Below are positions 18,482-24,803 of a stretch of 64,000 bases of DNA, in pieces; the first letter of the stretch is position 1, and each line of letters begins with the position of its first letter. The stretch spans positions 1 through 64,000 of the forward strand of contig JACZTG010000011.1 of the NCBI GenBank assembly GCA_022573815.1, given 5' to 3'. The notes below the pieces were generated by a model. It was not told the DNA's origin and did not search any database. It saw only the letters and a program-made list of their open reading frames with translations. The position numbers and the translations under genes were made by a program. This DNA comes from Candidatus Neomarinimicrobiota bacterium. Its GTDB lineage: Bacteria > Fidelibacterota > SORT01.

Positions 18482-18659
18482 TTCGTTAATGCCTTTTAAT
18501 AGTTAAAATTTGCAACTATTATGCCAATTCATCGCCTAATTCCTCAGATTCAAGCTGCTATTCAAATATAAGAAATCCAGACGTAATAATCAATTTACTT
18601 TTAAAAAATATTTACTGCCAATATGGCGTATATGCTGTCACAATCACTGAAACCGTCTG

Positions 18660-19718
18660 TCAGTTGATTATTAATTTTAGTGGGGGCAAGTACATATATT
18701 TTAACAGAGAATCAGCTGCTGTGAAATCAAAAATATCATCGATATTTTTATCTCTTATCAAGCCGAACCTTTCAGCCTTAGCAGCCATTTTCACGAGAGA
18801 AGGTCTTACGGGGTCATAGGTAGGCACTATATTGATATAGGCTTTTTCTCCAACCACTTCTGAAATATTTTCATTTATGAGAGCTAATATCCCTTTTCTG
18901 AGGATATCCAATGTCTCATTCTTATGACTCCTGATCCAAATAGTTATTTTTATGTGACTCTCCATAAATTTGAATATCACTTCCGGGTATTGATTCAAAA
19001 AATCATTTCTTACGACAATGACAGCTGTGGAATATATTGATTTCGTCCAGAGAGAGCTCTCATTTATAAACGGGTACCCTCCCTCTTCCACAATTAATTT
19101 TGAAGCCCACGGTTCGGCAATCCATGCGCCGGTTATGAGATTACTTGAAAACGATGTGATAATTTCTGAGCGGTCAAGCGGAGTGACGCTGATTCTGTGG
19201 CTTGGATTCGAAAGGTCTAATCCGTTTGAGAGAAAATAATCTCTCAGCGCCAGGTGCTGACCGGCATTATTTTCCGGAATAGCAATAATCTTTCCTCTAA
19301 AATCTTTTATCAGATGAGGGGGTATTTCTCGCTTAGCCACAAAAATGTTTCCGCCGCTGGTTACTCCCCCGATAATACGAATCAGATTTCTGTCCGAACG
19401 ACTGTGAGCTATTATAGCAGTGAGCGGATCTACAAATACGATATCAAGCTCGCCTCTCTTTAAGTCATTTATCAGCGCGGAATTTGATAAGTAACCCCTC
19501 GGTTTAAATTCTGATCCTCTTAAATTTAATTGATACTGTTTGTTATCAATTCCTACAAATGCCTGAGCATATGTGAAATCAGGCATAAATCCCAATCTGA
19601 TCTCCACAGGCATGTTTTCTTTCCGCTTTTCACCGCAGCCTGAAAGAAACAGGAGAAATATTATAAGAGGAAAAATGAACTTAATAGTTCCCTGTTTTTG
19701 CGTTTGTCTTGAAATCAT
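18660..19718 (-). CDS. NMT1/SsuA-type substrate-binding lipoprotein, orphan
   Basis: A periplasmic binding lipoprotein of 352 aa. The start is the ATG at 19718, which has AAGGA seven bases upstream; the frame is open far beyond but runs into the divergent gene. Signal peptide with lipobox (FIFPLIIFLLFLSGC, lipidated Cys after LSG). The body matches the NMT1/SsuA/TauA family that feeds ABC importers for pyrimidine precursors, sulfonates or similar: RLGFMPDFTYAQAFVGID, RGELDIVFVDPLTAIIAH, ITGAWIAEPWASKLI. No permease or ATPase gene is adjacent, so the ligand cannot be inferred. Confidence 0.85.
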   Translation of the reverse strand: MISRQTQKQGTIKFIFPLIIFLLFLSGCGEKRKENMPVEIRLGFMPDFTYAQAFVGIDNKQYQLNLRGSEFKPRGYLSNSALINDLKRGELDIVFVDPLTAIIAHSRSDRNLIRIIGGVTSGGNIFVAKREIPPHLIKDFRGKIIAIPENNAGQHLALRDYFLSNGLDLSNPSHRISVTPLDRSEIITSFSSNLITGAWIAEPWASKLIVEEGGYPFINESSLWTKSIYSTAVIVVRNDFLNQYPEVIFKFMESHIKITIWIRSHKNETLDILRKGILALINENISEVVGEKAYINIVPTYDPVRPSLVKMAAKAERFGLIRDKNIDDIFDFTAADSLLKYMYLPPLKLIIN

Positions 19719-19782
19719 TTGCAAATCCTTCTTCACAAGATTAATATAGTGATGGAAACAATTATTCAAAGGAATAGAAATC

Positions 19783-20436
19783 ATGGGTTTTTTAAACGAA
19801 TCGGATAAGGATGTTATCAGAAGTAAATTTGAAGACCTTAAAAACAACGTAAAGATTATTAATTTTACACAGACTATCGAGTGTATGTACTGCTCGGAAA
19901 CCCGGAGTCTGCTTGAGGAGGTAACCGACCTATCTGATAAAATATCCTTGGAAGTTTTTAATTTTATAACAGACGAAAAAGAGGTCAAGCAATTCAATAT
20001 CGATAAAATCCCCGCCACTGTTATTATGGGGGATAATGACTACGGTATCAGATATTACGGAATCCCATCAGGATACGAGTTTTCCAGTCTTTTGGAAGAC
20101 ATTCATATGATTTCTTCAGGTGATTCAGGGCTTTCTCAGGATACAAAGGATTCGTTAAAAGCTCTCAAAGACCCAATGCACTTGCAGGTTTATGTAACCC
20201 CTACATGACCCCATTGCCCGGCCGCGGTGCGGCTTGCGCATCAGTTCGCAATGGAGAGCGACCTTGTTACGGCGGATATGATTGAGGCGACCGAATTCCC
20301 TCAGCTTAGTATGAAATACGGTGTAAGAGGCGTTCCTATGACCATAGTCAATGAGAAGCCCGGCATAACAGGGTCTGTTCCCGAGCCGGCATTTCTTGCT
20401 CAGGCATTAGCCGCTTTGGAAAGCAATTTGACCTAA
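19783..20436 (+). CDS. Two-thioredoxin-fold disulfide oxidoreductase (PDO/glutaredoxin-like), probable selenoprotein
   Basis: Protein of 217 aa if the in-frame TGA at 20206-20208 is read as selenocysteine. Two thioredoxin folds: the first has CxxC at residues 34-37 (TIECMYCSET) and a cis-Pro region DKIPATVIM; the second has Sec142-Pro-His-Cys145 exactly where related PDOs carry CPYC, in the context VYVTPT-U-PHCPAAVRLAHQFA, and its own cis-Pro loop RGVPMTI. Reading frame, conservation and domain layout continue unchanged across the TGA, so it is not an ordinary stop. A SECIS-like hairpin follows immediately. Likely role: thiol-disulfide or peroxide-linked redox in the cytosol (no signal peptide). 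Divergent from the lipoprotein gene; rsgA follows 46 bases on. selA/selB/selC/selD are not in this window. The alternative is a nonsense mutation giving a truncated protein. Confidence 0.88.
20206..20254 (+). promoter_or_regulatory. Selenocysteine TGA with bacterial SECIS-like element
   Basis: Directly after the TGA (20206-20208) the RNA can fold into a lower stem CCATTGC/GCAATGG (20211-20217 with 20248-20254, 7 bp, perfect). It encloses an apical hairpin GCCGC-GGT-GCGGC (20221-20225 with 20229-20233) whose three-base loop is GGU, 18-20 bases past the UGA. Bacterial SECIS elements lie within the coding region just 3' of UGA and present a G or GGU in the apical loop at about this distance for SelB. 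The shape is seen; the function is inferred. Confidence 0.75.
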
Positions 20437-21895: not shown

Positions 21896-23761
21896 TTAAT
21901 TATTATTGCTTCTGTCCTCGTTATCCATTCCGTACTTCTTCATTTTTCGCCAGAGAGTCGTTCTCCCGATTCCAAGAGTATCCGCCGCTTTGGAGTAATT
22001 AAAATTGTGTTTCAGCAATACTTCCTTTATGTAGTCCTGCTCTACATCTTCCAATGTAGGCTGATTGGCATTATTATCAGATACATCTGTTTTGGCAGGA
22101 TTAAGAATAGAATTCGGAAGTTCTGACGGAAGAATAACTGCCGACGTGCTGAGAATAGCAACTCTCTCTATCACATTTTGCAGCTCGCGAACATTTCCCG
22201 GCCATCCGTAATTCTTAAGCAATATAGCTGTATTTTCATGAAGAGTCAGTATTCTCCCACCGTTTTGCCGTGATTGTTCTTTTAGAAAATGCTCCGCTAA
22301 TGCAAGGATGTCTTCAGGTCTTTCTCTCAATGGTGGAACGGCGATTTCCACAACATTCAGGCGATAATATAAATCCTCCCGAAATAATCCTCGTTCCACC
22401 CTTTCAAAAAGATGTTTATTGGTGGCTGCGATAACCCGAACGTCCACTAATGCGGATTTATAGCTTCCTACCGGTTGTATTTCTCGGTCCTGAAGAACTC
22501 GCAATAGCTTTACCTGTAATGAGAGCTGGAGCTCTGCGATTTCATCAAGGAATAATACTCCTCCATCAGCGCCTTGAAACATCCCTGATCTATCAGACTC
22601 TGCTCCCGTAAATGCGCCTTTGACATATCCGAAAAGTGTACTTTCCAATAAATTTTCCGGTATCGCTCCACAGTTGACGGCCACAAAAGGTTTGTTCGCT
22701 CTCGGACCCGAACGGTGTACGGCCTTTGCTACAAGCTCTTTTCCGGTGCCCGTTTCTCCGCTGATAAGCAGTGTGGCGTTTGAGGAAGCCACACGATCTA
22801 TGAGACTGAATACTTCCTGCATCAAATGCGAACGGGCTACGATACTTTTGGAGACGTCCCATTTATCCGATTCAGTCCATATCTTAAACCGGTCAATCGC
22901 TAATTCAATTATTTTTTCCACATCTCTAACGGCATCTTTTCTAACAGATAAATTTCTCGATATAACCGGATCTAATGAACTTGCTTGTGTGTAATACAGA
23001 TCGCCAAATTTGCTCAGTCCTGAAAATGACTTTGGGTTCTCCCCGAAATCTAAAATAAGAAATGGCGAAGACTTTGATTTTAAGAATTCAATGAGATCGT
23101 CTTTATTGATATCGTCAATAGCCACCCTGCTTTTTCCAATCAAGAAAATATCCGTTTCTTTGAAAGCATCGCTCAGCCAACCAAATTCCTTTACACTGCT
23201 AACTGATTGAATTCCTCTATCGGTTAGCGTATCCACTACTTCATTTCTGAAATCAGCTGTCCCATAGACTAAAGCCTTTTTATCGTGTAATTCTCCAAAT
23301 ATTTTTTCTGCTAAATCTACCGACGCTGATATTCGGTCAACGACTCCCGATCTTATAGTGGTAGAGGCTATGATTCGTTTCAGGGTTGACTTCACATCTC
23401 TGAAAAGTCTTGATAATATCGGTCCTGCTTTAGCTTCATCACCACCAGATAAAATTTCATTCTCAAATTTTTTGAACCACCTGTCAGATCCGAGGGGTTT
23501 TAAATCTAAACCGCAGCTCAGTCTGAATATTTGTTGGATGGATTCTTCATGACCGATAAATCTGCAATTCAATTCCTGAAAGTCTTTAGCTCTGATTTTC
23601 TTAAGTTTTTCATCACCATCAGCAGATACAGCTATCAGATATAGTGAGCTATCCAGCTGAATCTTTATCATTTCGTCCGCAGCTGAAATAACTTTTTGAA
23701 TTTCCGGGGAATGAGCTTCTTTGGGGCTAACAGTATTACAAATGATTGTTAAAATTTTCAT
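21896..23761 (-). CDS. Sigma-54 activator with a degenerate glutamyl-tRNA reductase (HemA)-like sensor region
   Basis: 621 aa. Residues 1-300 align with the three domains of HemA: IFRLSCGLDLKPLG (78-91) for the HLFRVAAGLDS-VLGE block, GPILSRLFRDVKSTLKRI (113-130) and SASVDLAEKIFGEL (145-158) of the catalytic domain, a Rossmann-like part from 161, and RNLSVRKDAVRDVEKIIELA (269-288) of the dimerisation helices. The catalytic STCNR loop is replaced by AVSADGD (44-50), the His of HLF is Gln77, and the Rossmann glycine motif is GTADFR, so it should not make glutamate semialdehyde. From 310: a full AAA+ activator with Walker A GETGTGKE (335-342), GAFTGA (382-387), Walker B GGVLFLDEI (400-408), WPGNVRELQ, then a Fis-type HTH (570-612). 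It is 16 bases below the hemX-like gene. It probably activates the divergent sigma-54 promoter. The fusion and the lost residues are seen; the signal is not known. Confidence 0.9.
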   Translation of the reverse strand: MKILTIICNTVSPKEAHSPEIQKVISAADEMIKIQLDSSLYLIAVSADGDEKLKKIRAKDFQELNCRFIGHEESIQQIFRLSCGLDLKPLGSDRWFKKFENEILSGGDEAKAGPILSRLFRDVKSTLKRIIASTTIRSGVVDRISASVDLAEKIFGELHDKKALVYGTADFRNEVVDTLTDRGIQSVSSVKEFGWLSDAFKETDIFLIGKSRVAIDDINKDDLIEFLKSKSSPFLILDFGENPKSFSGLSKFGDLYYTQASSLDPVISRNLSVRKDAVRDVEKIIELAIDRFKIWTESDKWDVSKSIVARSHLMQEVFSLIDRVASSNATLLISGETGTGKELVAKAVHRSGPRANKPFVAVNCGAIPENLLESTLFGYVKGAFTGAESDRSGMFQGADGGVLFLDEIAELQLSLQVKLLRVLQDREIQPVGSYKSALVDVRVIAATNKHLFERVERGLFREDLYYRLNVVEIAVPPLRERPEDILALAEHFLKEQSRQNGGRILTLHENTAILLKNYGWPGNVRELQNVIERVAILSTSAVILPSELPNSILNPAKTDVSDNNANQPTLEDVEQDYIKEVLLKHNFNYSKAADTLGIGRTTLWRKMKKYGMDNEDRSNNN

Positions 23762-24620: not shown

Positions 24621-24649
24621 AAGATATTTTCAAATAGATTCGATGTCAA
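24621..24649 (-). promoter_or_regulatory. Sigma-70-type promoter of the hemX-like/activator operon
   Basis: On the minus strand TTGACA (24649-24644) is followed after exactly 17 bases by TATCTT (24626-24621), about 22 bases before the hemX-like ATG. The -35 is a perfect consensus. This suggests the regulator operon is expressed by the vegetative sigma factor, unlike its divergent neighbour. Confidence 0.7.
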
Positions 24650-24679
24650 GTAAGAAATATAATGTTTATTTGTTTGCTG

Positions 24680-24712
24680 TTTCATTGTGAAACGTGAAAT
24701 TTCATAATGAAA
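24680..24712. promoter_or_regulatory. Dyad array, candidate activator-binding (UAS) sites
   Basis: Two 13-base dyads, TTTCA-TTG-TGAAA (24680-24692) and TTTCAT-A-ATGAAA (24700-24712), with centres 20 bases apart, about two helical turns, and a third TGAAATTTCA palindrome (24695-24704) between them. They lie about 120-145 bases upstream of the predicted sigma-54 start, the usual position of enhancer sites for Fis-type activators. The sequence pattern is seen; binding by the neighbouring activator is inferred. Confidence 0.6.
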
Positions 24713-24803
24713 ATTATATTGAATGAACTACGGGCTTGCTCTATCATTTAAATCCAAGCTATCTATATGTTTATTAACATTTTACACTCCTGTTCCAACT
24801 TAT

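Follow-up and report, generated by a model that had tools for sequence, protein, structure and literature searches.

A degenerate glutamyl-tRNA reductase as the putative input domain of a sigma-54 activator, predicted to control hemA together with a HemX-like protein

The window, i.e., the whole stretch of 64,000 nucleotides analysed here (contig JACZTG010000011.1 of a Candidatus Neomarinimicrobiota bacterium), carries on its minus strand a gene with an ATG start whose product joins a degenerate glutamyl-tRNA reductase (GluTR, HemA) to a sigma-54 activator (Table 1). A gene for a HemX-like membrane protein lies 16 bp upstream in the same operon, which is preceded by a sigma-70-like promoter and a tandem palindromic operator.

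Table 1. Positions of the fusion gene, its parts and neighbouring features in the window.
Feature	Position	Strand	Basis
Pseudo-GluTR/sigma-54 activator fusion	21896..23761	-	621 aa; kept as single gene in ~33 genomes
Degenerate GluTR region (residues 1-300) with catalytic and NADPH-type Rossmann domains plus first part of spinal helix	22862..23761	-	1gpj match, family profile, hhalign; no catalytic Cys in any of 32 fusions
Sigma-54 activator module (residues 307-612) with AAA+ domain, lid and Fis-type HTH	21926..22843	-	Pfam E 3.5e-70 / 1e-23 / 1.2e-16
HemX-like membrane protein (CcsA family, PF01578), 273 aa	23778..24599	-	PF01578 E 9.2e-20
Sigma-70-like promoter of hemX-fusion operon, TTGACA-N17-TATCTT	24621..24649	-	10/12 consensus match; just downstream of operator
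Tandem operator upstream of hemX-fusion operon, two TTTCA-N3-TGAAA 20 bp apart	24679..24713		One of two perfect tandem matches in genome
lon sigma-54 promoter	18511-18526	-	Directly upstream of lon; conserved in three relatives (among them G001 and G002)

Architecture of the fusion protein

The C-terminal part of the protein is a complete sigma-54 activator. Pfam places the module at residues 307-612, with Sigma54_activat at 307-473, AAA_lid_14, and a Fis-type helix-turn-helix (HTH_8) at 569-610, in agreement with the original prediction, made from the sequence alone, of a complete GAFTGA-type activator with a Fis HTH at residues 310-612. The Walker A (GETGTGKE) and GAFTGA motifs are present in the window protein, and among 32 aligned fusions they recur in 32/32 and 30/32, respectively. 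The recognition helix of the window HTH reads GIGRTTLWRK, of which IGRTTLWRK is nearly invariant across the fusions, as would be expected if the operator is conserved. By its AAA+ features, Walker A and B motifs and the GAFTGA loop among them, and by its HTH, the fusion can be assigned to the NtrC family. A sensor domain of the REC, GAF, PAS, V4R, ACT or CARF kind is usual in this family, without being required for membership; no Pfam match to any of these was found in residues 1-300.

Judged by sequence and profile comparison, residues 1-300 are a degenerate GluTR, made up of a catalytic domain, an NADPH domain and the first stretch of the spinal helix. When the N-terminal part of the window protein was searched against the PDB as a single sequence, only GluTRs matched well (1gpj, E 1.9e-13), and a six-member family profile likewise retrieved GluTRs only, with the M. 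kandleri enzyme (1gpj, chain residues 24-316 of 404) at E 4.3e-31. Alignment of the pseudo-GluTR with true HemA by hhalign gave a probability of 99.8% over the catalytic and NADPH domains. An AlphaFold2 model, a check proposed together with the original prediction, lends weaker support: at a pLDDT of 61, and built from an alignment of three sequences, one of them a true HemA, it retrieved six GluTR chains in Foldseek, which rank first and are the sole significant matches. The Pfam GlutR_N score of the window protein is 16.8 bits, below the cut-off of 27, so that standard annotation misses the GluTR domain.

The GluTR match ends within the spinal helix at a Trp that is invariant in 32/32 fusions (Trp295 in the window), and the dimerization domain is absent from all 32, with the AAA+ domain in its place. 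The claim that all three HemA domains are kept therefore holds for the catalytic and NADPH domains and the beginning of the spinal helix, and fails for the dimerization domain. When the 32 aligned fusions were compared with 64 true HemA sequences, the catalytic Cys of the STCNR loop was found in 0/32 fusions versus 64/64 enzymes. Two further catalytic residues are likewise lost from the fusions (Arg kept in 0/32, Asn in 1/32), as are the second Gly of the NADPH-binding Rossmann motif (kept in 1/32) and the otherwise invariant Pro after the conserved Asp of the Rossmann domain (0/32). Loss of the catalytic Cys and of the glycine motif, as predicted, thus extends to the whole family, whereas the predicted replacement of the active-site His (by Gln77 in the window protein) is not universal, His being retained in 13/32. 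The cysteine corresponding to C170, which we take to be the heme-binding cysteine of Salmonella HemA, seems not to be conserved in the fusions. By its catalytic Cys, glycine motif and dimerization domain, all lost, the GluTR part does not qualify as an enzyme; the idea that an inactive GluTR provides the input domain of a sigma-54 activator is supported, the relationship to GluTR being confirmed by sequence, profile and, weakly, the model.

Family distribution and the HemX-like neighbour

The fusion was found as one gene in approximately 33 genomes of three phyla. The two halves are not separate in relatives, a doubt that had been raised along with the original prediction, and the fusion is a real gene family rather than an assembly join. 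Within the family of the window (Neomarinimicrobiota, Fidelibacterota at NCBI) it occurs in two other genera, whose GluTR parts show 40-44% identity, and another family of the same phylum has a divergent copy (G010). A search of 388 high-completeness genomes yielded the fusion in two genomes outside this phylum (G387 and G321). More than two dozen of the 82 genomes searched in the phylum of G387 carry it, and G321 represents a third phylum-level lineage, of which two genomes were sampled. In a joint tree, a branch separates the fusions from true HemA (SH-aLRT 95); since this was a quick tree with some long branches, a single origin is compatible with it rather than shown.

Several other HemA matches were inspected and set aside. 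The long-frame HemA matches L110-L120 are not fusions to activators, and an Acidobacteriota match (L041) is an ordinary HemA beside siroheme genes. L116 (G271) is a 639-aa open frame in which a Met8/CysG-like siroheme dehydrogenase precedes HemA, probably a Met8-HemA fusion. In at least three genomes of the phylum of G387, a small Rieske ferredoxin-like gene is located downstream of the fusion (L150:10200-10532, L151:7470-7850, L153:9624-9965).

Automatic counting placed a HemX-like gene directly upstream of the fusion in 30 genomes, and G001 and G613 have one as well; among the genomes in which the neighbourhood is visible, G681 is the sole exception, where none was found beside the fusion. 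Fusion-linked and hemA-linked HemX proteins fall on opposite sides of one branch (SH-aLRT 89), and two His residues are invariant in both. The window genome encodes two other PF01578 proteins, with the sizes of CcmF and CcmC, and a single protein of the HemX type, i.e., the one beside the fusion. A function of the latter in cytochrome c maturation (CcsA/CcsB) is therefore unlikely. An AlphaFold2 model of the HemX-like protein (two sequences, pLDDT 50) was too poor for a meaningful Foldseek search.

HemX is known from Bacillus subtilis and Staphylococcus aureus for its link to GluTR, it controls GluTR abundance in other bacteria, and 94% of hemX genes adjoin gtrR (PMC5801465). In genomes with the fusion, hemX is beside hemA in only 1/20 cases, compared to 33/58 in the other genomes (Fisher p 4e-5, a value made too small by kinship among the genomes). 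As hemX in these genomes is mostly away from hemA and is found at the fusion instead, the fusion appears to have taken over HemX from hemA.

Operators and promoters of hemA and of the hemX-fusion operon

In the window genome, the true hemA heads an intact operon elsewhere (hemA-hemC-hemD-hemE-hemN-hemH-hemY-hemB-hemL), with no hemX beside it. The genome encodes RpoN (PF04552, E 4.3e-56) and seven full sigma-54 activator domains, six besides the fusion. With a hand-written promoter matrix, 16 strict -24/-12 sites were found, versus 1 in the reversed control, and the genes behind them include flagellar, pilin and chemoreceptor genes, lon and hemA. The hemA promoter, TGGCATAAATATTGC, recurs in G002 and G004. 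It is preceded, at a distance of about 130 bp, by a tandem TTTCA-N3-TGAAA palindrome, two copies 20 bp apart. The same tandem precedes the hemX-fusion operon, both in the window and in two relatives. A TTGAC(A/T) element occupies the place of the sigma-70-like promoter in two relatives. Among five genomes of the family searched, the window genome (G000) and G002 contain exactly two perfect tandems each, at the hemX-fusion and hemA operons. G001, in which the start of hemA lies off the contig, has one perfect tandem, and G004 has a one-mismatch tandem at hemA; all remaining matches in the five genomes have two mismatches.

This association extends across phyla: of the genomes with the fusion, 18/20 have the palindrome in the 400 bp before the hemA operon, versus 2/58 of the others (Fisher 1.6e-13, a value that is too small given that the genomes are related and kinship was ignored), with a count of 0 in the reversed-arm control. 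The two cases in which no fusion was detected, G015 and G668, are relatives of carriers with incomplete assemblies; the two fusion genomes without a strict operator at hemA are G664 and G673, the latter with a variant. G387, whose HemA was missed by the motif search and which therefore stands outside the 20-genome count, has the tandem at hemA too, with the copies again 20 bp apart. In 20 regions tested, a sigma-54-like element follows the operator at a distance of 96-223 bp (combined shuffle p 7e-13, likewise too small for related genomes). Outside the family of the window, the -12 element is mostly TTGA or TTGT rather than TTGC (e.g., L142, L198, the phylum of G387), at a similar spacing to the operator, which renders the use of sigma-54 less sure there and perhaps reflects a variant -12 preference in the phylum of G387. 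In single hemA upstream regions, such as that of G613, no convincing sigma-54-like element was found.

The strict operator also precedes the hemX-fusion module itself in 5/18 genomes outside the family of the window, and in eight genomes overall. Palindromes upstream of the module in G609 and G610 are unlike the operator and perhaps serve as terminators for the preceding gene. In seven genomes of the phylum of G387 (G609, G610, G611, G635, G643, G649, G684), the hemX-fusion pair is located beside or within ~15 kb of heme biosynthesis genes. Some of these loci carry siroheme decarboxylase genes (Pfam NirD/L-like), i.e., the siroheme-dependent route. In the G321 genome, which has the hemX-fusion module (L109), no match to HemA was obtained at E <= 0.001, and the gene may be absent, divergent or missing from the assembly.

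A putative heme-biosynthesis control system

Taken together, these observations suggest that HemX and the fusion probably constitute a control system for heme biosynthesis, in which a HemX/pseudo-GluTR sensor pair switches on hemA via sigma-54. Judging from its predicted DNA sites, the fusion very probably regulates hemA, which encodes the active enzyme. Both hemA as the regulon and HemX as the partner are well supported by comparative genomics, and among the signals named in the original prediction, HemX is strongly favoured by its nearly constant adjacency, while NADPH is unlikely because the glycine motif is degraded. The missing dimerization domain, the adjacent HemX-like gene, the true hemA operon elsewhere and the shared operators had not been part of that prediction.

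In the proposed scenario, an ancestral hemX-hemA pair would have been duplicated, and the GluTR copy would have lost catalysis and its dimerization domain and become attached, at a point inside the spinal helix, to an AAA+/HTH module of the NtrC type. The resulting protein is predicted to recognise TTTCA-N3-TGAAA palindromes, frequently arranged as tandems, that lie ~100-220 bp before the hemA promoter, where it would drive RNA polymerase with sigma-54. In several genomes, its binding to the same operators beside the sigma-70-like promoter of the fusion's own operon would provide autoregulation. The pseudo-GluTR would act as signal-input domain, with the co-transcribed HemX-like membrane protein as its partner. 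As for ligand and direction of the switch, we infer, by analogy with Firmicutes, where HemX holds GluTR at a low level in heme-proficient cells, that HemX may hold the activator inactive when heme is plentiful and release it when heme is short, raising hemA transcription; this is the most likely version. We lean, with some reserve, towards the further reading that the known enzyme-regulator pair of HemX and GluTR has been turned into a signalling pair, i.e., a presumed membrane heme sensor and a dead-enzyme activator of the gene for the live enzyme.

A possible, though less probable, alternative is that the pseudo-GluTR senses by binding a ligand directly (glutamyl-tRNA, heme or a tetrapyrrole), and that the HemX-like protein just shares its regulation or has true HemA as its target. 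Glu-tRNA is bound by true GluTR, some positions of the fold are retained in the pseudo-GluTR, and Salmonella HemA is reported to bind heme (Jones and Elliott 2010, cited in PMC12288459). However, residues of the catalytic pocket and the Rossmann glycine motif are degraded family-wide, and in the window genome HemX is encoded solely beside the fusion, as its close operon neighbour, with none at hemA. It is rather unlikely that the pseudo-GluTR, as a decoy subunit, pairs with true HemA or HemL, so that the activator would read the amount of free HemA instead of the state of HemX. Its descent from HemA would suit such a role, and GluTR-HemL complexes are known (PMC6399207), but without the dimerization domain, missing in all aligned fusions, the ordinary dimerization of HemA is not available to it.

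It is more doubtful still that the operators belong to another regulator, with the fusion controlling something else, e.g., lon. This gene is located ~3.4 kb away, its sigma-54 promoter is conserved in three relatives, and the genome has six other full activator domains. Yet the palindrome is absent at lon, tracks the fusion at hemA (18/20 vs 2/58) and flanks the fusion's own operon in eight genomes; lon was therefore rejected as the main target, and another activator may drive it. In Salmonella, Lon degrades HemA when heme is sufficient (PMC12288459). Finally, an assembly or annotation artefact joining two neighbouring genes, conceivable for draft genomes and for the gene of G001, which is split over two contigs, is practically eliminated, as ~33 independent assemblies from three phyla show this architecture uninterrupted by stop codons.

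Another gene near the fusion encodes an NMT1/phosphonate-type substrate-binding lipoprotein (window 18660-20018, minus strand), which adjoins the fusion in G002 and is nearby in G001. A similar protein is encoded beside the siroheme/hemA cluster of the unrelated Acidobacteriota locus L041.

The proposed hemX-fusion control system would bear on a step of general importance, as heme synthesis needs tight control at GluTR and bacterial heme sensing for this purpose is poorly understood. The mechanism of HemX and its partner contacts are an open question in the field (PMC5801465), and here HemX is tied to a dead GluTR and a promoter read-out, with a defined operator, promoter and partner that are testable in E. 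coli. If the signalling-pair reading is true, it provides evolutionary evidence that HemX directly contacts the catalytic/NADPH part of GluTR. The input domains of sigma-54 activators would also come to include one derived from an enzyme, and phyla of which hardly any members are in culture would gain a predicted heme regulon.

Among known systems, the closest parallel is the HemX-GluTR pair of B. subtilis and S. aureus, in which a PF01578 membrane protein is likewise encoded beside a GluTR-fold protein and serves heme supply (PMC5801465). There, HemX lowers the amount of active enzyme after transcription, whereas in the present system a transcription activator is attached to an inactive GluTR copy, and the PF01578 gene of the window genome is next to this GluTR-derived fusion, not next to hemA. 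With the NtrC-family activators, the fusion shares the complete AAA+ domain with GAFTGA, the lid, the Fis HTH and palindromic enhancer-like sites upstream of a -24/-12 promoter, and it differs in its input domain, a degenerate GluTR instead of REC, GAF, PAS, V4R, ACT or CARF. Text searches of the open-access literature found no description of a GluTR-derived sigma-54 activator, as the original prediction had supposed, and to our knowledge no such input domain has been described previously. Compared to GluTR itself (HemA; 1gpj, 4n7r, 5che), homology covers the catalytic and NADPH domains and the first part of the spinal helix, but the fusion lacks the catalytic Cys, Asn, Arg and the glycine motif, and its dimerization domain is replaced. 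The reuse of a metabolic enzyme fold as the sensor of a transcription factor has a counterpart in the aminotransferase-derived MocR/GabR regulators, which differ from the fusion in the enzyme, the type of DNA-binding domain and the type of promoter.
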